DNA of 19,975 nucleotides from Sandarakinorhabdus sp. (GTDB taxonomy: Bacteria; Pseudomonadota; Alphaproteobacteria; Sphingomonadales; Sphingomonadaceae), in NCBI GenBank assembly GCA_025458465.1, contig JALOSK010000103.1, positions 1 to 19,975 of the forward strand, written 5' to 3'. The notes under the pieces are model-generated. The model did not search any database. It had not been told where the DNA came from and worked only from the letters and a program-made list of their open reading frames with translations. The position numbers and the translations under genes are program-made. Shown in pieces: positions 2,179-15,196 of the stretch. Each line of letters begins with the position of its first letter. Within the stretch, counting starts at the first letter, position 1.

Positions 2179-3021
2179 TCAGGCGGTGGCCTTGATGGCC
2201 TGCATTTCCTGGGCCAGCGTCCACAGGGCGCGGTTGAGGCCGACATTCTGATCAATGCCATTGATGGCGCGGGTGCTGGCGCGGCGGATGCGCCCGCGTT
2301 CATCCTGCTTGCGGCCGATCAAGCCGCCCCGGATGATGTTTTCCTGCACGACGTTGAGCGTTTCCCACAGGCCCGGCCCGGCATCTTCCCGGCGGCGCGG
2401 GCGCAGCAGCTGGGCGGCGGTGACGGGGGGCTGATCCTCCCCATAGCGGGCGACCAGGGCGGCGCGGGCAAAGGCGCCCTGTTCCGGCGGCGAGAGGCGC
2501 AGCGCCTTCATTTCGGCCGCCGCATCGATCAGGCGGGGGAAATCCTGGGCGACCGTGTAGGCGCCTTCGATAATCTGATCCTGAATGTTGCCCTTGTGGG
2601 GCACGCGGACTTCTTCAAACTTGCTGCCGGCAATCAGGCTATTCGTGCACACGAAGCGGATCAGGCCGGCAAACATCTGATAGCTGCTGCTGCCGTTGTG
2701 GCTGTTGACGATCACGACTTCCGCGGCTTCCTGGGCGTTGATATCCCCCACCCGGCGAAGGCGCAGCATGTGCTTGGTGTGGCCGATCTGGCCGGCATCG
2801 CGGCTGCGGGATTGCGCGGCAAAGAAGGGCTGCCAGCCTTCGCGGCGCAGGCCATCCACCAGCTTGATGGTGGGCACATAGACATAGCGGCTGCTGCGGC
2901 TTTCGTGCGCATCATCGGCGAAGATCGACGGGCAGACGGCGCGCAGCTGGGCATCTTCCAGCGGGGTGCGGCTGCTGATGGCGAGATGACCGCGACCGAA
3001 ACGGGTGGCGAGAGTGTGCAT
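2179..3021 (-). CDS. DUF932 family phage/plasmid protein
   Basis: A 280-residue protein matching the DUF932 family from end to end. Recognisable segments are YVYVPTIKLVDGLRREGWQP (46-65), HTKHMLRLRR (81-90), VNSHNGSSSYQM (105-116), NVVQENIIRGGL (223-234) and GIDQN (255-259). The family is common on phages and plasmids and its biochemical role is unknown. I chose the ATG at 3021 rather than an upstream one at 3123. It has a good ribosome-binding site (AGAAAGGG, 6 bases before the start), and the extra 34 residues would run through the promoter and operator. It is the first gene of the leftward operon; 63 bases separate it from the 54-aa gene. Confidence 0.9.
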   Translation of the reverse strand: MHTLATRFGRGHLAISSRTPLEDAQLRAVCPSIFADDAHESRSSRYVYVPTIKLVDGLRREGWQPFFAAQSRSRDAGQIGHTKHMLRLRRVGDINAQEAAEVVIVNSHNGSSSYQMFAGLIRFVCTNSLIAGSKFEEVRVPHKGNIQDQIIEGAYTVAQDFPRLIDAAAEMKALRLSPPEQGAFARAALVARYGEDQPPVTAAQLLRPRRREDAGPGLWETLNVVQENIIRGGLIGRKQDERGRIRRASTRAINGIDQNVGLNRALWTLAQEMQAIKATA

Positions 3022-3069
3022 GTGAGGCCCTTTCTGACCATAAGGCGCCTTGCCCAACTGCCCGGCGCC

Positions 3070-3087
3070 TGTCCTAATCTTAGGACA
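3070..3087. promoter_or_regulatory. Perfect 18-bp palindromic operator
   Basis: TGTCCTAATCTTAGGACA is an 8-bp inverted repeat around a 2-base centre, typical of the dyad bound by a dimeric helix-turn-helix phage repressor. It overlaps the predicted -10 and start point of the leftward promoter 49-66 bases before the DUF932 ATG. It does not resemble the alphaproteobacterial LexA box (GTTC-N7-GTTC type). The cognate regulator is not in this window. Confidence 0.75.
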
Positions 3088-3107
3088 GAAGCGGGCGCGC
3101 TTGTCAA
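3077..3107 (-). promoter_or_regulatory. Sigma70-type promoter for the DUF932 operon
   Basis: Read on the minus strand, a perfect -35 TTGACA lies at 3107-3102 and a TAAGAT -10-like hexamer at 3082-3077, spaced 19 bases apart. This is slightly long but usable. The -10 sits inside the palindromic operator, so a bound repressor would block RNA polymerase. Confidence 0.55.
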
Positions 3108-3181
3108 GCCCGCCCGCGCCCATTATTTTGCCCCGCGCCCCAGCCCTTTGATTTCTATCATGAATTGGCGTGGCGACGGGC

Positions 3182-3258
3182 GGTTACGCGGTTACGCGGC
3201 GGTTACGCTGGCCGTAACGCCTAAGCCATTGAAGGCGAAGGCAGGTTACGCGGTTACG
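3182..3258 (+). repeat. GGTTACG repeat cluster, left arm
   Basis: Five direct GGTTACG units at 3182, 3190, 3201, 3244 and 3252, plus one inverted GTTACG core at 3213-3218. The first two and last two are spaced exactly 8 bases apart, giving GGTTACGCGGTTACG-like tandem pairs. Confidence 0.8.
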
Positions 3259-3333
3259 GTCTTGCGGGCGCGCGCGCGTGTAGCGCGGCGAGGGGCTGGG
3301 GGGGGAGTGTGCCCTTCACGCGCGCGCGCGGCG

Positions 3334-3436
3334 CGTAACCATGTAACCAACAACCAACAAAGGGGGATTAACCTTTATATATCAGGGGGTTGGCGCGGTT
3401 ACGAAGGCGGTTACACTGTGGTTACGCTGTGTAACC
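3334..3436. repeat. GGTTAC repeat cluster, right arm, with inverted units
   Basis: Two inverted units (3334-3340, 3342-3348), three direct units (3397, 3409, 3420) and one inverted unit (3430-3436). The last direct and inverted units form a 6-bp stem GGTTAC/GTAACC with a 5-base loop at 3420-3436. The AT-rich segment lies inside this span. Confidence 0.75.
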
Positions 3437-3490: not shown

Positions 3491-3513
3491 ATGGCCGCGC
3501 CGCGTGATGGGGG
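3491..3513 (+). pseudogene. Out-of-frame N-terminus of the small terminase gene
   Basis: ATG 3491 follows an AGGGGG ribosome-binding site 6 bases upstream and encodes MAAPRDG before the G run at 3509-3513. Downstream of the run, the coding sense continues in the other frame into the small terminase. This is the likely original start, separated by a one-base indel. Confidence 0.45.
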
Positions 3514-5888: not shown

Positions 5889-6176
5889 ATGGCGGTGAAA
5901 CTGGCAGCACTTCCAATGATCCTGGGCGCAACGGCCATCGGCGCGACCACGGCGGCGCTGCCGGCGTTGCTGGCCAAGAAACCCAAAGGCCCGACAATTG
6001 CGCCGCCGGTGACGCGCGATGATGCGTTGGAAGCGGCGCGCCGCGATGACGAGCTGCGGCGGCGCACCGGATCTGCGGCCAACATCATTGTTCCCGATGG
6101 CGCGGGCGAGGCCAGCACCGCCAGCGCCAAAAGCGAGGCCAGCACCGCCAGCGCCAAAACCTTGCTGGGCGAGTGA
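5889..6176 (+). CDS. Small phage protein with hydrophobic N-terminus, 95 aa
   Basis: The start at 5889 lies four bases after the terminase stop. Residues 4-30 form an Ala/Leu-rich hydrophobic segment that could be a membrane helix. It is followed by a Pro-containing linker and a charged helix (DDALEAARRDDELRRRTG, about 40-57). The C-terminus ends TLLGE. Small proteins with an RRR-G...I segment and a TLLG tail are frequent near terminase and portal genes in tailed phages, but I know of no assigned function. A 27-bp tandem duplication near the 3' end repeats EASTASAK. The head-gene position suggests a minor virion or assembly role. Confidence 0.75.
   Translation: MAVKLAALPMILGATAIGATTAALPALLAKKPKGPTIAPPVTRDDALEAARRDDELRRRTGSAANIIVPDGAGEASTASAKSEASTASAKTLLGE
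6108..6161 (+). repeat. 27-bp in-frame tandem duplication
   Basis: Two adjacent 27-bp units, 6108-6134 and 6135-6161, differ at one base near the end. They encode EASTASAKS then EASTASAKT inside the small post-terminase protein. The near identity suggests a recent slippage duplication. Confidence 0.85.
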
Positions 6177-6187
6177 AAGGACCAACG

Positions 6188-6745
6188 ATGACGAGGAACC
6201 AAGACCAGGCGGCGGCCGAGGCGGAAGCCAAGGCCAAGGCCGAAGCGGAGGCCAAGGCGGAGGCCGAGGCGGTGGCGGCCGACGCGGAAGCCAAGGCCAA
6301 GGCGGAGGCCGAAACCCTGCTGGAAGCCACGGAAATCGCCGAAAAAGGCCCGCTGATGCTGGCCAGCGGCATTGCCGAGGCCGATGCCGAAACCCTGTGG
6401 CAAGCCCCGTTGCGGCGGGCCTTCGTGACGCTGCACGGCACGGCTGTGCTGATCTTTGGTTCTGGCAGCAGCGACGGCAGCACTACGGTTTACGCCGTGC
6501 CCGGCGCGCCGGTGCTGGACGTGAGCGGGCCGCAGTTCGCTTATGTGAACGAGCGCCTGGTGTGGAACGGCAAGGCCGAGCTGGTGGGCGGCCCCGCGCT
6601 GGGCCTTGGCCGCAGCGTTACGCATGTGGCGCTGGCCGATGGCCCGGATGGGCCGGTGCGGGCCGTGGCGCCGCTGGGCGCGCCGATCCATTGGCGGCCG
6701 GGTGAAGCCTTTGGCTTTGGCCCTGGCGCCTTCGTGTTCGCTTGA
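6188..6745 (+). CDS. Coiled-coil/beta virion-region protein, 185 aa
   Basis: Residues 5-45 are an Ala/Glu/Lys-rich repeat (units such as AEAKAKAEAE) predicted as a long helix or coiled coil. Residues 70-185 form a Gly-rich, beta-strand-like domain (VTLHGTAVLIFGSGSSDG, then YAVPGAPVLDV). I chose ATG 6188 over GTG 6173 because AAAGGA lies 6 bases before it; GTG 6173 overlaps the previous stop and has no spaced ribosome-binding site. The helix-plus-beta plan could suit a spike-anchoring or neck protein, but this is inference and the family is not recognised. An exact 20-bp repeat (6221-6240 and 6284-6303) lies in the helical part. Confidence 0.7.
   Translation: MTRNQDQAAAEAEAKAKAEAEAKAEAEAVAADAEAKAKAEAETLLEATEIAEKGPLMLASGIAEADAETLWQAPLRRAFVTLHGTAVLIFGSGSSDGSTTVYAVPGAPVLDVSGPQFAYVNERLVWNGKAELVGGPALGLGRSVTHVALADGPDGPVRAVAPLGAPIHWRPGEAFGFGPGAFVFA
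6221..6303 (+). repeat. In-frame direct repeats coding the Ala/Glu/Lys helix
   Basis: The 20-base unit at 6221-6240 recurs exactly at 6284-6303, 63 bases later and in frame, with GAGGCCAAGGC-like fragments between. It encodes AEAKAKA heptad-like stretches. Internal slippage is the likely origin. Confidence 0.7.
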
Positions 6746-6755
6746 GGAGGCAGAC

Positions 6756-7100
6756 ATGAGTGAAATTCGGATTGAGCAATTCCCCGGCGCCGGCACCGAT
6801 GGCCGCGAAACCGTGCAGATGCCGGTGCTGGACTTGACGGCGGATTGCCTGACCGTGGCCAGCGGTGCCGCCGCCGCTGCGAGCGCTCCGCTGGACCCCA
6901 AGACGCGCGTGATCGGCATTCGCGCCAGCGCCGGGCCGGTGGCGGTGCGCATCGGCAGCGGCAATGCCGCCGCCGTGGCGGGCCAGCTGGCGACGGCGGC
7001 GGCCGGGGCATCGGTGAACCAGGACGAATATCGGTTCTTTGCCGTGCCGCCCGCGCTGCACGGCAAAGCCGATGTGCGCGTGGCCGTGATCGACCGATAG
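6756..7100 (+). CDS. Small beta-rich virion-region protein, 114 aa
   Basis: A strong ribosome-binding site GAGGAGG lies 5 bases before ATG 6756, ten bases after the previous gene's stop. The product starts MSEIRIEQFPGAGTDG and has alternating hydrophobic strands with Ala/Gly-rich loops (TRVIGIRASAGPVAVRIGSG, then EYRFFAVPPAL), consistent with a compact beta domain of the decoration or fibre-base kind. No catalytic motif is visible. It sits directly before the 844-aa spike-like gene, so a role in attaching or assembling the spike is possible; the sequence does not prove it. Confidence 0.7.
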   Translation: MSEIRIEQFPGAGTDGRETVQMPVLDLTADCLTVASGAAAAASAPLDPKTRVIGIRASAGPVAVRIGSGNAAAVAGQLATAAAGASVNQDEYRFFAVPPALHGKADVRVAVIDR

Positions 7101-7110
7101 GGGGCAGGCC

Positions 7111-9645
7111 ATGCGGATGTGGGGCACTGGATTTGGCGGCTTTGGCGCGGGCGGCGGCACGCCGCCTGGGCCACCAGGCGTGTCGCTGTCGATCACCGGC
7201 AGCCCGCCTGCCACGGTGCGGCAGTTCACGGCCTATGAATTTGTGCCGGTCGTGAGCGGTGGCACGCCGCCTTATACGTTTGCGCTCACATCCGGCACGC
7301 TCAATAGCGATTTTGTGATTGACCCTGAAGCCGGCACAATAACCAGTGCAAGCGCTGTTGAGTTGACAGCAATGACTGATTTGCGGCTGACCGCAACGGA
7401 CGCGGCCGGAAATACAGCGACGCTCGGGCCGTTCTCGATCACGCCGCAGCAAGTGTTCTCAATTGTGGACACTGGCGCCAGCGGGCGCAGCTTGGCAGCG
7501 ACAGGATGGGTGCCGCCGGCGGCCGTCGAGCAAGTGCTGATTGCCATGACAATTCGCATGGAAGGGTATCCTGCAAATAATCGCCGCATGTTTGTGTTGC
7601 ACCAAACCGGCTCAACATCAAATGTGGGCCTGCTGGTGACTGTGGAGCCGACGGCCCAGCGCATTGGTTTTAGCATGACCAACAACACGGCCTATCGTGT
7701 GTGGACTTCTAACGCCACGCCGGTGGGCCGCACGTTGCAGATATTTGCCCAGCTCACCACGTTGAGCGCTGCTGGCCGCACCACGCCAATCACGCGCGCG
7801 CGGCTATGGGTAAACGGCGTGTTTCAGCCTGGCGAAGTGGCATGGGGCGCTGCTGGGCCTGCTTCGCCAGCAGCAAATTATGCGCAATTAGAGTGCTTTG
7901 GCGTGTCCAATGCTAGCGTGCCTGATGTGTCGCTGGGCTATTTATGGGCAAAGTGTGGCACGTTGGCAGATTTTGGGCTGGTGAACTTTGATGATCCGGC
8001 GGAGCGCGCCAAATTCGAAATGGGCGTGCTTGACCCGGTGAGCGGCGTCGTAGCGACGGGCATTGGCACGCTGACGCCTGACGTGTTCGTCCACGACACG
8101 TCTGCCAATTGGCAATCGGGCGCCATCGCCAACCGTGGTGCGGCTGGTGCGTTTGCGATCCCACGCATCAACGGCACCTATTCGGATGGTGCGCTTTGGC
8201 AAGATGCGGCGTTCACGCTTGGCAATCCGGCGCCGACAAGCCGCACGGCGTTCACAAGCAACAACATCACGCTGAACTTTGCCAGCGCGCGCACCGGTGG
8301 CCAGTTTGCCAACGCCTATCTGTGGATTGATAACACTGCGGGGATCAACTTTACGACCGATCCGCCATCAGTGCAGCGCAACCGTCCGTTCCGAGATCGT
8401 GCGGGCACCGCCGGACTGGGCTGGGATAGCGGGGCAGAGCATAATCCGGGCAGCGTGGCCAAAATCGCCAGCCATCCAACCTTGCAAGGTGACGGAGCGC
8501 GGCAGGGGTATGATTTTTACCAAGACCCGGCCAATTATCATGTAAGCTATCAGGATAGCTTCAACATTGACCCTGGCCGCACAGGCACGCCTCTTGCCCT
8601 GACAAGTGGCACGCTGGTGAAATACGTCAGCAACAGCACGGTGAACTTCGTAAGCGGGGCGACCCAATCCGGCCGCGACAACCAAGCGCGCGCCGTGGCC
8701 TTCAGCTTTGACGTGCCGCCTGACACCACAAACCTGTATTTCATGCCGCGCCAGAACGGCGTTCCGTTGGTTGATGGCTTGGGCCGCAGCGCGTGGATTA
8801 TCAGCCGCAACAGCGCAGGCGTATTTCAGCCTGATATTTCCATGCTGCCCAATATCGCCACGCCAACGGGCGTAACGCTGCCGCCGGCGGTGGCGCTGTA
8901 TAATCAAATTCTGCGGTGGCAATCAGTAAGTCATTTGAATTTTGGCACAGCGCGTAATCTGGCCGCTCCATCGCAGATGACAAATTATGGCCGCGAAGCG
9001 ACGCTTCTGACCGGCAACATTGCGCTGTTGATGTGCATGAGTGCACTGACCAGCGATCAAAAGGCATTTTTAGCAGAAGCCATGACGCAATATGGCATCT
9101 TCCTTGCGCGCCATATCGAGACTGGTGTGAACAACAGTGGCACCACTGGCATGGGCAACACGAGCACGGGCCGCAAAATGGCGCTGGCTATTGCTGCTCT
9201 GGTGACGGGCAACGCGCGGCTGCAAGATGCGCTCGCCAGCGCCACGACATCAAAGCAGGTGTATGCTGAAGACATTCAAATCCGGCCTGTGACGGCTGCC
9301 GATCAAGCAGAATGGCCGGGCACTGTCTATGACACGCTGCTTGGGCAAGGCGAGTGGACTGGTGGCAACCAGACGACCGGCGACCTAGTGCCTGCATGGA
9401 CAACTGGCGAAAATGAGGCAGTGGAATATCGTCACAATTGGGCAAGTGCAATGATCCTGCACTATTGCGCAGTAAAGGCCATTCCAGGGCTGCAAACGCT
9501 GTGGAACAATACGCTGTGGCTGCAATACATGGAGCGCTATTATCAGACCGAGCTTGGACGTGGCTTTGCTGGCGATACAGGCAACGTTGACCGTATGGAC
9601 AATTTTGGTCGCCAATTCCGGGCGCAAAATCCGGGGCTGTTTTGA
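7111..9645 (+). CDS. Large tail spike/fibre-like protein, candidate receptor-binding protein
   Basis: An 844-residue protein. Residues 1-24 are Gly/Pro-rich and may be a virion anchor. Residues 25-110 look like an Ig/cadherin-type domain of the He_PIG kind (VVSGGTPPYTFALTSGTL). Residues 110-300 resemble a lectin-like jelly roll. The middle to 600 is a repetitive beta region, and residues 620-844 are mostly helical (NIALLMCMSALTSDQKAF; HNWASAMILHYCAVKAI), possibly an alpha/alpha toroid as in polysaccharide-active enzymes. No active site can be named. Base composition is clearly lower in GC than the neighbours (for example 29 of 60 bases GC at 9421-9480 against 45 of 60 at 14521-14580). This fits acquisition from elsewhere. 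Its place between terminase and portal is unusual for a spike gene. Confidence 0.65.
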   Translation: MRMWGTGFGGFGAGGGTPPGPPGVSLSITGSPPATVRQFTAYEFVPVVSGGTPPYTFALTSGTLNSDFVIDPEAGTITSASAVELTAMTDLRLTATDAAGNTATLGPFSITPQQVFSIVDTGASGRSLAATGWVPPAAVEQVLIAMTIRMEGYPANNRRMFVLHQTGSTSNVGLLVTVEPTAQRIGFSMTNNTAYRVWTSNATPVGRTLQIFAQLTTLSAAGRTTPITRARLWVNGVFQPGEVAWGAAGPASPAANYAQLECFGVSNASVPDVSLGYLWAKCGTLADFGLVNFDDPAERAKFEMGVLDPVSGVVATGIGTLTPDVFVHDTSANWQSGAIANRGAAGAFAIPRINGTYSDGALWQDAAFTLGNPAPTSRTAFTSNNITLNFASARTGGQFANAYLWIDNTAGINFTTDPPSVQRNRPFRDRAGTAGLGWDSGAEHNPGSVAKIASHPTLQGDGARQGYDFYQDPANYHVSYQDSFNIDPGRTGTPLALTSGTLVKYVSNSTVNFVSGATQSGRDNQARAVAFSFDVPPDTTNLYFMPRQNGVPLVDGLGRSAWIISRNSAGVFQPDISMLPNIATPTGVTLPPAVALYNQILRWQSVSHLNFGTARNLAAPSQMTNYGREATLLTGNIALLMCMSALTSDQKAFLAEAMTQYGIFLARHIETGVNNSGTTGMGNTSTGRKMALAIAALVTGNARLQDALASATTSKQVYAEDIQIRPVTAADQAEWPGTVYDTLLGQGEWTGGNQTTGDLVPAWTTGENEAVEYRHNWASAMILHYCAVKAIPGLQTLWNNTLWLQYMERYYQTELGRGFAGDTGNVDRMDNFGRQFRAQNPGLF

Positions 9646-9670
9646 TGGGCCCACAGCAAAAAAGGATCGC

Positions 9671-11305
9671 ATGATGGAACCGCTGATCAGCAAGCTAAAG
9701 CAGCGTTACGCGACCATGCTGGGGGAGCGCGCGCAGTGGGAAAGCCATTGGAGCGAGATCGAGCGGCGCGTGAGCCCGCGCGGCGATGTGCTGCGGCGGC
9801 CGGCGGTGGGCGGGCGGCGCACCGAGTATATCTTTGAAAGCACCGCCACGCTGGGGCTGGAACGCTTTGCCGCTGCCATGGTGGGGCTGGTGGCGCCGCA
9901 GGGCCAGCGCTGGCACACGCTGACCACCACCGATCGCCGGCTGATGGCTGATATCCAGGTGCAGCGCTATCTTGAGGAGGTGAATGACCTGCTGTTTGAC
10001 TATCGCTATTCGGCGAGCAGCGGATTTTCGACCAACCTGTTCGAGTGCATGATCCAGTTGGGCAGCCTGGGCACGGCGCCAATCTATATCGAGGATCAGC
10101 CGGCCAGCGGCATCAGCTACCGCGCCATGCACATCACCGAATGCTGCATCGATGTGGATCACCAAGGCCGGGTGGACACGGTGGGCCGCGAATTCGACTG
10201 GACGGCGCGGCAGGCCAAACAGAAATGGGGCATCGAGGCCCTGCCCCGCCAAGTGCGCGAAGCGCTGGACAAGCCCGACCGCAAATTCACGTTCTGCCAG
10301 ATGATCGCGCCGCGCGCCGATTATGATCCGAACCGCATGGACGCGAAAGGCAAGCGCTGGGGCAGCTGGTTCTGGCTGAAAGACAGCGGCGATGCCATCA
10401 TTGCCGAAGGCGGCTTCAACACCATGCCGATCCCGGTGGCGCGCTACACCACGGCGCCGCGCGAGAATTATGGCCGCAGCCCGGCCATGATGGTGCTGCC
10501 CGATATCAAGATGATCAACGAGATGGCCAAGACGGTGATCCGCAGCGCGCACCGCAACCTGGACCCGCCGCTGCTGACCGCCGATGATGGCGTGCTGACA
10601 CGCATCCAGACCCGGCCCGGCGCCATCAACATCGGCGGCCTGAATTCGCGCGGGGACCAGATGGTGCGCCCGCTGCAAACCGGCGGCAGCCTGCCCGAAG
10701 CCCTGGAACTGCAAGCGCAGACGCGGCAGACGATCAAGGACGCCTTTTTCGTGAGCCTGTTCCAATCGCTGGTGGACGCGCCCGACCGCATGACGGCGAC
10801 CGAAGTGCTGGAACGGATGCGGGAACGCGGCGTGCTGCTGGCGCCGGCCGCCGGCCGCATCGAGACCGAACTGCTGGAACCGCTGATCACGCGCGAGCTG
10901 GACATTCACGCGCGCGCCGGCCGCCTGCCGCCGATGCCGGAGGCGCTGGCGCGGGCCGGCGGCGATGTGAAAGTGGTTTACCAGAACCCCATGAGCCGCG
11001 CGGCCAAAGCCGAGGAAGCCACCGGCTTTTTCCAGCTGGTCAACGCCATCACGCCGCTGGCCGCATCGGAGCCGGAAATCCTGGACGCGCTGGACATGCC
11101 GGCGGCCGTGCGCGGCATCGCCAGCATCATCGGCGTGCCGGCACGCTGGATGCGCAGCGTGGAGGAAGCCAAGGCGCGGGCCGATCAGCGCACGCAGGCA
11201 GCGCAAGTGCAGCAGCTGGCGGCGGCAGCACCGGCGGTGGCCGGCGCCACGCTGGACCTGGCCCGCGCCGAGCAGCTGGGCGGCGGCCTGGAAGCGGTGA
11301 TCTAG
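9671..11305 (+). CDS. Portal protein (T7-like head-tail connector)
   Basis: A 544-residue protein starting MMEPLISKLKQRYATMLGER and matching the podovirus head-tail connector family: an early helical part with WESHWSEIERRVSP, a central part with NYGRSPAMMVLPDIKMINEM near 265-284, and a C-terminal helical tail rich in Ala and Gln. Twelve copies would form the ring through which DNA enters and leaves the capsid. AAGGA lies 4 bases before ATG 9671 and 7 before ATG 9674; the second may be the true start. The gene follows the spike-like gene by 25 bases, and the GC-rich composition returns here. Confidence 0.92.
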   Translation: MMEPLISKLKQRYATMLGERAQWESHWSEIERRVSPRGDVLRRPAVGGRRTEYIFESTATLGLERFAAAMVGLVAPQGQRWHTLTTTDRRLMADIQVQRYLEEVNDLLFDYRYSASSGFSTNLFECMIQLGSLGTAPIYIEDQPASGISYRAMHITECCIDVDHQGRVDTVGREFDWTARQAKQKWGIEALPRQVREALDKPDRKFTFCQMIAPRADYDPNRMDAKGKRWGSWFWLKDSGDAIIAEGGFNTMPIPVARYTTAPRENYGRSPAMMVLPDIKMINEMAKTVIRSAHRNLDPPLLTADDGVLTRIQTRPGAINIGGLNSRGDQMVRPLQTGGSLPEALELQAQTRQTIKDAFFVSLFQSLVDAPDRMTATEVLERMRERGVLLAPAAGRIETELLEPLITRELDIHARAGRLPPMPEALARAGGDVKVVYQNPMSRAAKAEEATGFFQLVNAITPLAASEPEILDALDMPAAVRGIASIIGVPARWMRSVEEAKARADQRTQAAQVQQLAAAAPAVAGATLDLARAEQLGGGLEAVI

Positions 11306-11308
11306 GCC

Positions 11309-11638
11309 ATGGCCAATTGGGCAATGAAATTGGCCCGCAACGTGGCCGAGCGCTACCTGCACGAACGGCGGTGGCGCCGCTGGCAGGCGTATCGCGCGCT
11401 GTTCCAGGATGGCGACGGCAAACTGACGGCAGAAGCGGATATCGTGCTGGGCGACCTGCGCGATTTCTGCCGGGGCCATCAATCCACCTTTGACCCCGAT
11501 CCGCGCGTGCACGCCCTGATGGAAGGCCGCCGCGAAGTGTGGCTGCGCATCGCCGAGGCGCTGGCCATCGATGAACCCATGATGATGCGACTGGATGCCA
11601 ACCGACCCACAATCAGCGAGGGAGACGACAATGAGTGA
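11309..11638 (+). CDS. Bbp19-like phage protein
   Basis: A 109-residue protein with the Bbp19-type pattern: RALF at 29-32, VLGDLRDFC at 46-54, a ST pair at 59-60 and EGRREVWLRI at 72-81. The family is named after a Bordetella phage BPP-1 protein, is common next to portal genes in podoviruses, and has no proven function. The gene starts three bases after the portal stop. Its last codons lie in the 45-bp repeat shared with the scaffold start region, and its stop overlaps the ATG of the Tad2-like gene (ATGAGTGA). Confidence 0.82.
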   Translation: MANWAMKLARNVAERYLHERRWRRWQAYRALFQDGDGKLTAEADIVLGDLRDFCRGHQSTFDPDPRVHALMEGRREVWLRIAEALAIDEPMMMRLDANRPTISEGDDNE

Positions 11639-11643
11639 CGATC
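11599..11643 (+). repeat. 45-bp direct repeat, copy 1, at the Tad2-like gene start
   Basis: Identical to 12095-12139. It covers the last Bbp19 codons, the ribosome-binding site GAGGGAGA, the ATG and the codons for MSDD. Flanking bases differ between copies. The offset is 496 bp. Confidence 0.95.
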
Positions 11644-12074
11644 TGACATGCGCAGCAATGCGAACCTTCATTGGCACGAAAGTGGTGCAAGCCAAGAGCG
11701 CCATCAAGGATGACGTGATTGGCTACAAGGTGGTCTATCCCGATGGCTATGAAAGCTGGTCGCCGCCGGAAGCATTTGAGGAGGCTTATCGGCTGACCGA
11801 CGACTTCACCATGTCCTTTGGTCATGCCCTGGTCATGCTCAAGCGTGGAGCCAAGCTTACGCGGGCGGGCTGGAACGGGAAAGATATGTTCATCTTCCTG
11901 GTGCCCGGCTCACATTTCAAGGTGAACCGTCCGCCCCTGTTGGGCATCTACCCGGAAGGCACCGGCATCGATTATCGCCCGCACATCGACATGAAAACGG
12001 CGCAGGGCGACGTGGTGCCGTGGGTGGCCAGCCAGAGCGACTTGCTGGCCGACGATTGGGCTGTGGTGGTCTGA
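11631..12074 (+). CDS. Tad2-like (DUF2829) Thoeris anti-defence protein with N-terminal extra domain
   Basis: A 147-residue protein. Residues 61-146 match the DUF2829/Tad2 family along their length: MSFGHALVMLKRGAKLTR (61-78), GWNGKDMFIFLVPG (80-93), NRPPLLGIYPEGT (99-111), YRPHIDMKT (115-123), VPWVASQSDLLADDW (129-143). Tad2 proteins are phage counter-defence factors that bind the cyclic ADP-ribose-type signal made by Thoeris and so stop effector activation. Residues 12-54 (IGTKVVQAK...GYKVVYPDGYESWSP) form a second small domain seen in other short phage proteins, of unknown role. The start at 11631 has GAGGGAGA 5-7 bases upstream and overlaps the Bbp19 stop. The gene sits inside the head operon, so it would be made late, and it is bracketed by 45-bp repeats. 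Confidence 0.88.
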   Translation: MSDDLTCAAMRTFIGTKVVQAKSAIKDDVIGYKVVYPDGYESWSPPEAFEEAYRLTDDFTMSFGHALVMLKRGAKLTRAGWNGKDMFIFLVPGSHFKVNRPPLLGIYPEGTGIDYRPHIDMKTAQGDVVPWVASQSDLLADDWAVVV

Positions 12075-12094
12075 CCGACACGCCGGCCCAATCT

Positions 12095-12139
12095 CAACCG
12101 ACCCACAATCAGCGAGGGAGACGACAATGAGTGACGATC
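12095..12139 (+). repeat. 45-bp direct repeat, copy 2, at the scaffold start
   Basis: Identical to 11599-11643. Here the first 32 bases are intergenic; the copy supplies the scaffold ribosome-binding site, ATG 12127 and codons for MSDD. Recombination between the copies would remove the Tad2-like gene exactly and leave Bbp19 overlapping the scaffold start. Confidence 0.95.
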
Positions 12140-13104
12140 CGAATGAAGGCGGCGGCGCGGGCGGCGGTGGCGCAGGCGGGGACGGCGTAACGCCGGCCAG
12201 CGCGGCGGGGCTGCTGGGCGCGGCGGCCGAAGGTGGCGGCGGTGGCGCGGGCGGCGCGGGCGGCGGTGCTGGTGGCAGCGGTGACGGCCAGAAGGGCGAG
12301 GCGCCGGACTGGTGGGGCACGCTGGCCGACACGGCGCCGGACAAAAAGACGCCGAGCGACCGCAAGTGGATCGAAAACAAGGGCTTCAAATCGCCGGCCG
12401 AAGCGATTGCCGCCTATCGCCAGCTGGAAAACCAGTTTGGCAGCGGTGAAAAGCTGGTGCTGCCCAAGGACGCCAACGATGCCGATGGCTGGAACCGCGT
12501 GTTTACCGCGCTGGGGCGGCCGGAAGCGCCCGAAGGCTATGACGCCAAGCCGCTGGGCGACCAGGTGGACCCGGCCTTCTTTGGCGAATTCGCCAAGGCA
12601 GCACACGCGGCCGGCCTGACGCAGCGGCAGGTGGAGGCCGTGGCAGAATTCAACAACCAGCAGCTGGCCGCAGCGGCGACAGCCCAGGCGCAGCGCGAGA
12701 AGGCGGAAGGCGCCGAATTGCGCAAGACCCACGGCGCCGCGCTGGAAACCATGATGGCGCACACGGATCGGGCGCTGGCCGCCTATGGCTTTACCGAGCA
12801 GGAAGCCATTGCCATGCGCCAGGCGCTGGGCGTGAAGCGATCACTGGAATTCTTTGCCAAGCTGGGCAGCGGCATGGCGGAAGATGGCCTGCCCGGCAAT
12901 GGCAACAAGGGCGGCGGCGGGGATCTGGCGCGGGGATCTGGCGACCATGCTGCAACGCAAGCAGCAGATCATCAAAGACCCGGAACTTGCCGGCAAGCTG
13001 CGGAACGGCGACCCGGCGCTGAAAGCCGAATGGGATGCCATCAACGCAGCCGAGGCCGCGCAACTGGAAGCGCAGCGCCGGGTGGCGTGATTTCAGGCTC
13101 TTGA
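12127..13104 (+). CDS. Head scaffolding protein, C-terminus frameshifted
   Basis: The gene lies between portal and capsid genes and is read from ATG 12127 with the ribosome-binding site in the 45-bp repeat. Residues 8-55 are almost pure Gly/Ala. Residues 60-265 are charged and helical (WIENKGFKSPAEAIAAYRQL; VEAVAEFNNQQLAAAA), the pattern of T7-like scaffolds that template capsid assembly and then leave. A 13-bp tandem duplication at 12918-12943 shifts the frame. After about residue 268 the product becomes Arg/Gly/His-rich nonsense and ends at 13104 (325 residues). The natural tail is visible in the next frame to 13090. With one 13-bp copy removed the protein would be 316 residues. The scaffold C-terminus usually contacts the coat protein, so the lesion should matter. 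Confidence 0.8.
   Translation: MSDDPNEGGGAGGGGAGGDGVTPASAAGLLGAAAEGGGGGAGGAGGGAGGSGDGQKGEAPDWWGTLADTAPDKKTPSDRKWIENKGFKSPAEAIAAYRQLENQFGSGEKLVLPKDANDADGWNRVFTALGRPEAPEGYDAKPLGDQVDPAFFGEFAKAAHAAGLTQRQVEAVAEFNNQQLAAAATAQAQREKAEGAELRKTHGAALETMMAHTDRALAAYGFTEQEAIAMRQALGVKRSLEFFAKLGSGMAEDGLPGNGNKGGGGDLARGSGDHAATQAADHQRPGTCRQAAERRPGAESRMGCHQRSRGRATGSAAPGGVISGS
12918..12943 (+). repeat. 13-bp tandem duplication inside the scaffold gene
   Basis: CGGGGATCTGGCG occurs twice in a row (12918-12930 and 12931-12943). Thirteen is not a multiple of three, so the duplication moves the downstream reading frame. Confidence 0.9.
12932..13090 (+). pseudogene. Displaced C-terminal segment of the scaffold protein
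   Basis: In the frame one base away from the scaffold frame, this segment encodes GDLATMLQRKQQIIKDPEL, then KAEWDAINAAEAAQLEAQ, and stops at TGA 13088-13090. It is charged, amphipathic and protein-like, unlike the same stretch in the scaffold frame, and is the expected basic helical tail of the scaffold. Confidence 0.75.
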
Positions 13105-13299: not shown

Positions 13300-14226
13300 A
13301 TGTCTGTCAACGTTACCGCCACGCAAATCGTTCAGTTCAAGAACAACATGGAGCTTTCGCTCCAGCAGACCCGGCCGAAGCTGTGGCCGCACCTGACCGA
13401 GGAAAGCGCCAGCGGCCGGCTTTCCGAGCTGACCAACCTGATCGGCCCGGTGCCCGGCCAGGAAGTGGACGAGCGCCACGGCGAAACCAAATACAACAAC
13501 ACGCCGCATGACCGGCGCTGGGTGGCCAAGCGCAAGCCCTATACCTATGCCGACCTGGTGGACAGCGATGACCAGCTGCGCGCTGGCATCGATCTGCAAG
13601 GCGCCTATGTGCGCGCCGGCACCGCCACGATCAATCGCGGTTATGACGAGCGCTTCCTGCAAGGCTTTTACGGGGTGGCGCAGACCGGCGAGACCGGCAG
13701 CACGCTGGTTTCGTTCCCCGCCGGCAACATCATCGCCGCAGACGTGGGCGCCGGCACCGCGACCGGCATGAACGTCGAAAAGCTGATCGTGGCCAAGCAG
13801 CTGTTCATGGCCAACGAAGTCGATCTGGACATGGAAGAACTCTATGTTGCGCTGACCAGCGTGCAGTATGGCCAGCTGCTGCGCGACCTGCGCGCCACGA
13901 GCCGCGATTTCGTGAGCCAGCAGCAGATGACCGTGATCGAAAGCGGCAAGCTGCCGATGCTGCTGGGCTTCAACTTCATCCAGATTGAATATGGCAACGC
14001 CAACAGCTTCCCGCTGGCGGCGCCGCTTTCGCTGGATGGCAGCGGCCGGCGCCGCGTGCCGGTGTGGTGCAAGAGCGGCATGGCCGGCGGCGTGTGGGAA
14101 AAGCTGTTTGCCAGCATCGACACCCTGCCGGGCCGCAACCACAGCACGCAGGTTTATGCCCGCATGGACGTGGCCGCCGCCCGCACGCAGGAAGGCAAGT
14201 GCCTGCAAATCCTTTGCGCTGAATAA
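13300..14226 (+). CDS. Major capsid protein
   Basis: A 308-residue protein starting MSVNVTATQIVQFKNNMELS. Its position after portal and scaffold, its length and its sequence style fit the capsid family of alphaproteobacterial podoviruses and related phages (Phage_capsid_2 type). Visible segments include RRWVAKRKPYTYADLVDSDD around residues 73-92, a Gly/Ala-rich loop before GMNVEKLIVAKQLF, and a beta-rich C-terminus ending QILCAE. I chose ATG 13300 over TTG 13288 because TTGGAG lies 6 bases before it. The gene is flanked by two strong hairpins, which may set its expression apart from neighbours. Confidence 0.88.
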   Translation: MSVNVTATQIVQFKNNMELSLQQTRPKLWPHLTEESASGRLSELTNLIGPVPGQEVDERHGETKYNNTPHDRRWVAKRKPYTYADLVDSDDQLRAGIDLQGAYVRAGTATINRGYDERFLQGFYGVAQTGETGSTLVSFPAGNIIAADVGAGTATGMNVEKLIVAKQLFMANEVDLDMEELYVALTSVQYGQLLRDLRATSRDFVSQQQMTVIESGKLPMLLGFNFIQIEYGNANSFPLAAPLSLDGSGRRRVPVWCKSGMAGGVWEKLFASIDTLPGRNHSTQVYARMDVAAARTQEGKCLQILCAE

Positions 14227-15052: not shown

Positions 15053-15196
15053 ATGGCCAGCTGGATCGAGATTGCCAACGCCGCGCTGGTGCGCATGGGA
15101 TATGGCACCACGCTGACCGCGCTGGACGAGGCATGGAGCGGGATGCCGAATTGCGCGCCCACCCATGGAACTTTGCGCACCGCCGCGCGCAGCTGA
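15053..15196 (+). pseudogene. N-terminal fragment of tail tubular protein A
   Basis: ATG 15053 has GGAGG 7 bases upstream and encodes MASWIEIANAALVRMGYG, then LTALDEA, the usual opening of gp11-like tail tubular A proteins. After residue 27 the frame turns to nonsense and stops at 15194. The continuation MERDAELRAHPWNFA is in the next frame from 15133. Intact relatives, as I recall them, have about 19 residues between the LDE segment and RAHPWNF; here about 7 remain. A small deletion with frameshift is therefore the best explanation. Confidence 0.6.

Follow-up and report, generated by a model that had tools for sequence, protein, structure and literature searches.

How did a gene of the Tad2 family come to lie between two genes of a phage head region, and why is it bordered by two identical stretches of DNA? 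The question is raised by a Sandarakinorhabdus sp. contig (JALOSK010000103.1), of which the whole stretch of 19,975 nucleotides is referred to here as the window. From portal to capsid, all features lie on the plus strand. The portal (head-tail connecting) gene (9668–11305; PF12236, 387.7 bits) is followed by a Bbp19-like gene of 109 amino acids (11309–11638; PF25181, 51.9 bits), whose stop overlaps the next ATG by 8 nt. Then come the Tad2-like gene, a scaffold-like gene (12127–13104 as the open frame runs in the window; phrog_3742, 2.5e-28) and the major capsid protein gene (13303–14226; PF19821, 177.9 bits). The name scaffold is given to the phrog_3742 protein by its position between portal and capsid and by custom, the PHROG having no assigned function, and the protein also has a weaker match to a protease family. 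Further upstream, between the terminase and the portal, an 844-residue open reading frame (7111–9645) has no clear Pfam family; it is possibly a host-binding or tail protein outside its usual place.

The sequence-only reading had reported that positions 11599–11643 (copy A) and 12095–12139 (copy B) are identical, and a direct comparison within the window finds the identity to be exact over 45 bp. The pair cannot be extended to the left, while to the right one mismatch is followed by two matches, giving 47 of 48. The starts of the copies are 496 bp apart, and between them lies a segment of 451 bp (11644–12094) that holds the Tad2-like gene, counted from its native start, with 14 nt before it and 20 nt after it. 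The direct repeats exactly border the extra gene. No other exact direct repeat in the window is as long, the runner-up being 27 bp, and in simulated sequences of the same length (n = 100, order-2 Markov) the longest exact repeat is 22 bp. The 45-bp repeat occurs twice, and no more, in the whole of a 25,560-bp IMG/VR record that is discussed below. Each copy was also said to hold a ribosome-binding site, an ATG and MSDD codons; this is confirmed by AGCGAGGGAGACGACAATGAGTGACGATC, which is present in both copies and comprises the Shine-Dalgarno-like GAGGGAG, the ATG and MSDD codons and one further base.

The bases of the repeat can be assigned to two different genes. Read in the Bbp19 frame, copy A begins with the last base of the A97 codon and goes on through the final 12 codons (N98 to E109) to the stop, which sits within ATGAGTGA, the start of the next gene. 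Among 11 aligned Bbp19 proteins (own included), residues L95, D96 and R99 do not vary and P100 hardly does, and because these C-terminal residues are conserved, the end found in copy A is native to Bbp19, overlapping the start region with its ribosome-binding site, ATG and MSDD codons. Among the relatives, an 8-nt overlap with Bbp19 is the commonest arrangement of the scaffold start, seen in 43 of 101 loci (starts were picked by a simple Shine-Dalgarno/ATG rule, which gave a candidate for 101 of 102 loci), and ATGAGTGA is found at this overlap in, for example, L009, L016, L032, L087 and L096. The nearest scaffold protein (P0122, 46% identical) opens with MMTDGGEQGG and that of the window with MSDDPNEGGG. 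These starts make it most likely that the MSDD codons belong to the scaffold gene. Copy B is a non-coding duplicate of the Bbp19 3' end placed ahead of the scaffold ATG, together with the ribosome-binding site, ATG and first codons of the scaffold.

The Tad2-like gene can be read from two starts. Its presumed translated form begins at the ATG in copy A (11631–12074, PF11195) and has 147 amino acids with the leader MSDDLTCAA, while the native form (11658–12074) has 138 and begins MRTFIGTK. The 11 nearest homologues (P0002–P0012, 69–77% identical) are 136 residues long, open with MQTFIGTK, MKTFIGTK or MRLFIGTK, and their start aligns with the methionine at 11658. Since the closest homologues begin at this internal methionine, the MSDDLTCAA leader was captured and is foreign to the family. 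An MSDD leader is found in none of the 59 homologue starts listed, and a few remoter homologues bear other short N-terminal extensions. By eye, no Shine-Dalgarno-like stretch precedes the native methionine, while the captured ATG is preceded by GAGGGAG. The proposal that the duplication gives the cargo and the displaced scaffold each a start signal is supported.

When the flanks are joined in silico, an intact Bbp19 gene and its 8-nt overlap with the scaffold are restored. The geometry described in the sequence-only reading is correct: if the two copies recombined, 496 bp would be lost and an 8-nt overlap between Bbp19 and the scaffold ATG would result. The GC content of the insert (0.592, against 0.663 for the window) falls at about the 11th percentile of 451-bp stretches, which is a weak signal. 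The duplication, its chimeric make-up and the overlap that reappears on joining the flanks can all be read off the letters of the window, and the simplest history would be that a single original Bbp19/scaffold overlap was parted by the insertion of 451 bp and duplicated on the way.

We consider it very probable that the Tad2-like segment was inserted at the Bbp19/scaffold overlap and that the overlap was duplicated in the process, so that both genes kept a start signal. In this history, a podovirus-like phage would have gained a promoterless single-gene segment (451 bp, Tad2/DUF2829 family) in its late head operon, the left joint of the segment falling just past the fourth scaffold codon and the right joint 45 bp upstream, which duplicates the overlap. 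Copy A would still serve as the end of Bbp19 and would now also supply the start of the Tad2-like gene, which fuses MSDDLTCAA to the N-terminus of the protein; copy B would keep a dead piece of Bbp19 and restore the ribosome-binding site and ATG of the scaffold. The duplication would have originated through illegitimate recombination with offset joints. It may have been selected, because random insertions in the overlap would survive only if the scaffold's ribosome-binding site and ATG are kept; the survivors would then be only the offspring with a duplicated overlap, as the scaffold needs its start. The Tad2-like gene would be translated with the late head operon and coupled to Bbp19 via the 8-nt overlap.

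A repeat can also arise from a mis-join in an assembly, and a second assembly bears on this. IMG/VR contig 3300037462_000126 (25,560 bp; loci L008, L302 and L303) is essentially the same phage and contains both copies at the same spacing; the window and this contig may not be independent samples. A comparison along the full length of the window gives a single substitution and four small length changes between the two sequences; two of the length changes are tandem copies in the window, and none of the differences is at the 45-bp repeat. Therefore, at least one of the assemblies has local errors or the sequences are variants, which is what could be said for an artefact. However, the repeat and the insert are identical in both assemblies, the captured start reads in frame into the insert, and copy B provides the start of an otherwise open scaffold frame, so that we hold a mis-join to be very improbable.

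The length changes are observations in their own right. At 6106–6159, in a small open reading frame behind the terminase, a 27-bp unit stands twice in tandem in the window and once in the IMG/VR contig; further on, at 6208–6330, lies a repeat region rich in alanine and glutamate. Within the scaffold gene, a 13-bp tandem duplication at 12919–12943 (GGGGATCTGGCGC), which the IMG/VR contig (L008) does not have, shifts the frame and is either an assembly error or a real variant. Two stretches of the IMG/VR contig, 37 bp near 3510 and 36 bp near 15131, are missing from the window. The small tandem copies show that one assembly, or the population, varies at short repeats.

The occupancy of the junction in related phages was compared by profile scans. 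The first six-frame scan covered 278 loci, of which 145 have both Bbp19 and scaffold, and the Tad2-like gene occurs together with Bbp19 in seven loci, all of them from the window's own phage. In the total of 303 loci, 160 have a Bbp19 hit; far from standing at this place in all relatives, the Tad2-like gene is present in 10 of these, and all 10 are the own phage. This distribution, the chimeric make-up and the restored overlap bear out the suggestion that the repeat is the footprint of an insertion.

Extra DNA at the same place is, however, not special to this phage. Loci sharing an identical 150-bp stretch were merged, which gave 118 and later 128 distinct loci (three of the 145 loci lack collinear plus-strand hits and were omitted from the first set and included in the second). 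The gap between Bbp19 and scaffold is at most 200 bp in 102 of the 118 collinear loci and larger in 16 (own included), and in the later set it exceeds 200 bp in 17 of 128, again with the own phage included; near-identical relatives are kept as separate rows, and these counts do not equal independent events. One of the loci counted is L089 (BcepC6B), whose 283 bp are in part an annotated gene overlapping Bbp19. The gap between portal and Bbp19 likewise exceeds 200 bp in 17 of 128 loci, the window's phage not among them. A hotspot special to the Bbp19/scaffold junction is thus rejected, as both gaps are large equally often; the junction is permissive, not special.

Pfam and PHROG scans of 10 chosen proteins (nine from between Bbp19 and scaffold, one from L170) reveal a varied cargo. 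L028 carries an HNH/endonuclease-VII-type protein (phrog_3322), L223 an endonuclease VII (PF02945) and a protein weakly similar to glycosyltransferase 9 (24.4 bits, cut-off 22), L230 a glycosyltransferase-9-like protein (29.3 bits), and L275 and L236 have DUF5856 proteins. By sequence, the cargo of L278 is of the same kind as that of L236, while the cargo of L231, L253 and L251 has no family match and in L292 no cargo was identified in the approximately 690 bp at the junction. A protein similar to that of L230 also lies between Bbp19 and scaffold in L227, L234 and L244, as judged from the sequences by eye; L246 is 99.9% like L244. In L028, the last codons of the endonuclease-like gene (6256–6786), which lies between Bbp19 and scaffold, overlap the scaffold start by 8 nt (ATGGATAA). 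This is the overlap that Bbp19 itself has in L030, i.e., another way to restore the junction.

In the 16 other loci with a gap above 200 bp, exact flanking repeats do not exceed 11 bp, against 45 bp in the window's phage; for L215, L028 and L246, the comparison of the flanks took in at least about 120 bp to the left and right of each joint. The sequence-only reading had named different cargo between the repeats as possible support. In part this is what is seen, as other cargo does occur at the junction, but the repeats do not accompany it, and there is no sign of cargo exchange between repeats at those 16 loci. The same result fits a young event in the window's phage, and the insertion is likely recent; gene conversion could keep the copies identical, so recency is likely rather than firm.

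Two further loci share sequence with the Tad2-like protein. In L170, a distant phage in which no Bbp19 is detected, a protein with the N-terminal domain of the Tad2-like protein and another C-terminal part (phrog_1761) is encoded directly upstream of the scaffold (3004–3369). It is probably an independent recruitment, shared descent at this place being less likely than two recruitments. In L106, which has no Bbp19, Tad2-like and scaffold-like hits lie about 3 kb apart.

Direct repeats at both ends of an insert are also what a transposon, a homing element or an integron-type cassette with a target-site duplication would leave, and the endonuclease genes at the same junction in L028 and L223 could be taken in the same sense. 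A length of 45 bp is, however, long for a target-site duplication. The longest inverted match near the ends of the insert is 5 nt, and the Tad2-like gene is the only gene recognised in it, with no transposase. No core of the form GTTRRRY, the motif given for integron attC sites (PMC9892861), is found in 11580–11660 or 12075–12160. No Rfam family reaches its cut-off, the one match (14.7 bits against 45) being at chance level, and folding does not go beyond shuffled sequences (z of 0.21 on one strand of copy A and 0.70 on the other, 0.90 for 12060–12139). With neither core, inverted ends, Rfam match nor fold, integron, transposon and structured-RNA readings were rejected, and we regard a mobile element of this class as extremely improbable.

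If the insertion left a repeat, then recombination between the copies may excise the gene again. One alternative to a single past insertion is an active, reversible single-gene cassette, in which the population mixes carriers and excised forms and the gene is turned on and off via the repeats. An excised junction would preserve both reading frames, and 45 bp of identity at a distance of 496 bp is a plausible substrate for recombination. However, the insert is present in both assemblies. A search of IMG/VR with the exact 29-base core of the repeat found the own phage only, with both copies present and no excised or single-copy junction. The window belongs to a genome bin that is 76% complete and gave no 16S hit; in this bin, a search with the 1141-base junction matched over its full length only the window itself, besides six short weak matches. 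No recombinase is recognised in the insert, which has no site-specific features. Ten window proteins gave no Pfam hit to a recombinase, and none was recognised in the rest of the IMG/VR contig, where open reading frame lists were read by eye and not exhaustively. The precisely excisable cassette of the sequence-only reading finds no support in these searches. Thus, although excision is possible in principle, an active cassette seems quite unlikely, and the related idea of the repeat as a reversible switch, by which the promoterless Tad2-like gene is gained and lost precisely in the virus population with capsid assembly unharmed, is best treated as doubtful.

No empty site was found at the nucleotide level; the junction of the relatives compared as DNA is homologous in its proteins and in the overlap, but their sequences are too diverged for the 45-bp repeat. 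The nearest Bbp19 proteins (P0138–P0146) are 49–59% identical and known as protein sequences only, and a whole-word literature search for Bbp19 under that name returned nothing relevant. Among annotated phages two records match, at 67–73% over 13% and 5% of the query. A search with the portal found a match in 13 of 298 genomes of the host family (own included, best other 38%) and in 19 of 396 genomes of the order (own included, best other 44%). These matches are therefore too distant for a nucleotide comparison.

Comparisons can be made with other phages in which a repeat-flanked insert is seen next to single-copy relatives. Genes 43–46 of the Cluster C1 mycobacteriophage LRRHood (PMC3029335) are additional DNA in a single phage, with a short direct repeat on each side, one in the end of the preceding gene and the other ahead of the following gene. 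The repeat is single in relatives and one of the cargo genes is proposed to act against rival phages (PMC3029335). The differences are that LRRHood has four genes in 1.35 kb, a 29-bp repeat and close single-copy relatives, while the window's phage has one gene, a 45-bp repeat and no close relative. In Cluster O, Corndog gene 14 lies between copies of a 17-bp repeat of which the other Cluster O genomes have one copy, where the neighbouring genes meet; for YungJamal gene 60 the flanking repeats are imperfect and 24 bp long (PMC4351075). Both are reported there as single genes in one genome, flanked by direct repeats, as in our case, and in the relatives of Corndog and YungJamal the repeat is single at a gene junction; their repeats are shorter, and the account of these two genes does not describe the capture of a start at a head-gene overlap.

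The insert also resembles a phage moron in that it parts two genes which lie side by side in relatives. However, the typical moron is described as bringing its own promoter and terminator (PMC3029335), whereas here no more than 14 nt before and 20 nt after the native gene belong to the insert, which borrows the start signals of the scaffold. Gene starts carry repeats in Cluster K phages as well, the Start Associated Sequences, but these are reported throughout the genome (PMC3203893), unlike the two-copy repeat of the window's phage. Repeat-flanked insertion is thus a kind of event already known in phages, and this case stands out by its longer repeat, its captured start codon and a cargo with a possible anti-defence role.

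These comparisons also bring in the most credible of the alternatives, namely that the cassette was acquired by homologous recombination with a partner, either a phage or an excised circle, that carried the Tad2-like gene beside the same or a similar overlap. Acquisition of this kind has been proposed for LRRHood and Corndog gene 14, and with it loss by the same route would be expected. The anatomy is indeed alike, with the 29-bp repeat of LRRHood covering the end of one gene and the region upstream of the next, and the 17-bp repeat of Corndog lying across a gene junction. In contrast, the exact 29-base core occurs in a single IMG/VR contig, which is this phage's own, the other 16 insert-bearing loci lack a flanking repeat above 11 bp, and no donor of the Tad2-like segment was found among the sequences searched. 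We therefore see acquisition from such a partner as possible but rather unlikely, and insertion with duplication of the overlap remains the preferred reading.

The Tad2-like protein matches PF11195 with 91.2 bits (cut-off 25), and the PDB Tad2 chains 9eib_A and 8v3e_E match residues 51–137 of the 138-residue form at E-values of about 2e-19. The likeness to Tad2 (PF11195) sponge proteins is thus in the C-terminal domain, which matches both Pfam and the solved chains, while the window protein differs by an extra N-terminal IGTK...SWSP domain and by the captured leader. The N-terminal domain is also present in the Tad2-like homologues listed. In the 298 genomes of the host family, three have a match to the gene, including the own genome, and the other two match the C-terminal domain only. 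Tad2 proteins are reported to sequester the signal nucleotides of Thoeris or CBASS (PMC12043709, PMC13299392). From family membership, a putative anti-immunity role is possible, in which the protein would act against an immune signal, binding gcADPR, His-ADPR or cyclic dinucleotides and so blocking Thoeris or CBASS. Expression with the late operon would be odd for such a protein.

The locus is an unusually readable case of gene entry into a packed phage operon. The two copies reveal the origin of the bases and the positions of the joints, as well as the way in which the incoming gene gained its start codon and the displaced gene kept one. A possible anti-immunity gene has been placed among late head genes, which makes the timing of its expression a testable puzzle. 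If the repeat did act as a switch, an anti-defence gene without a promoter could be carried or shed via duplicated start regions. More generally, if the proposed history is true, tightly packed phage operons would be able to take in promoterless genes by duplicating a gene overlap.
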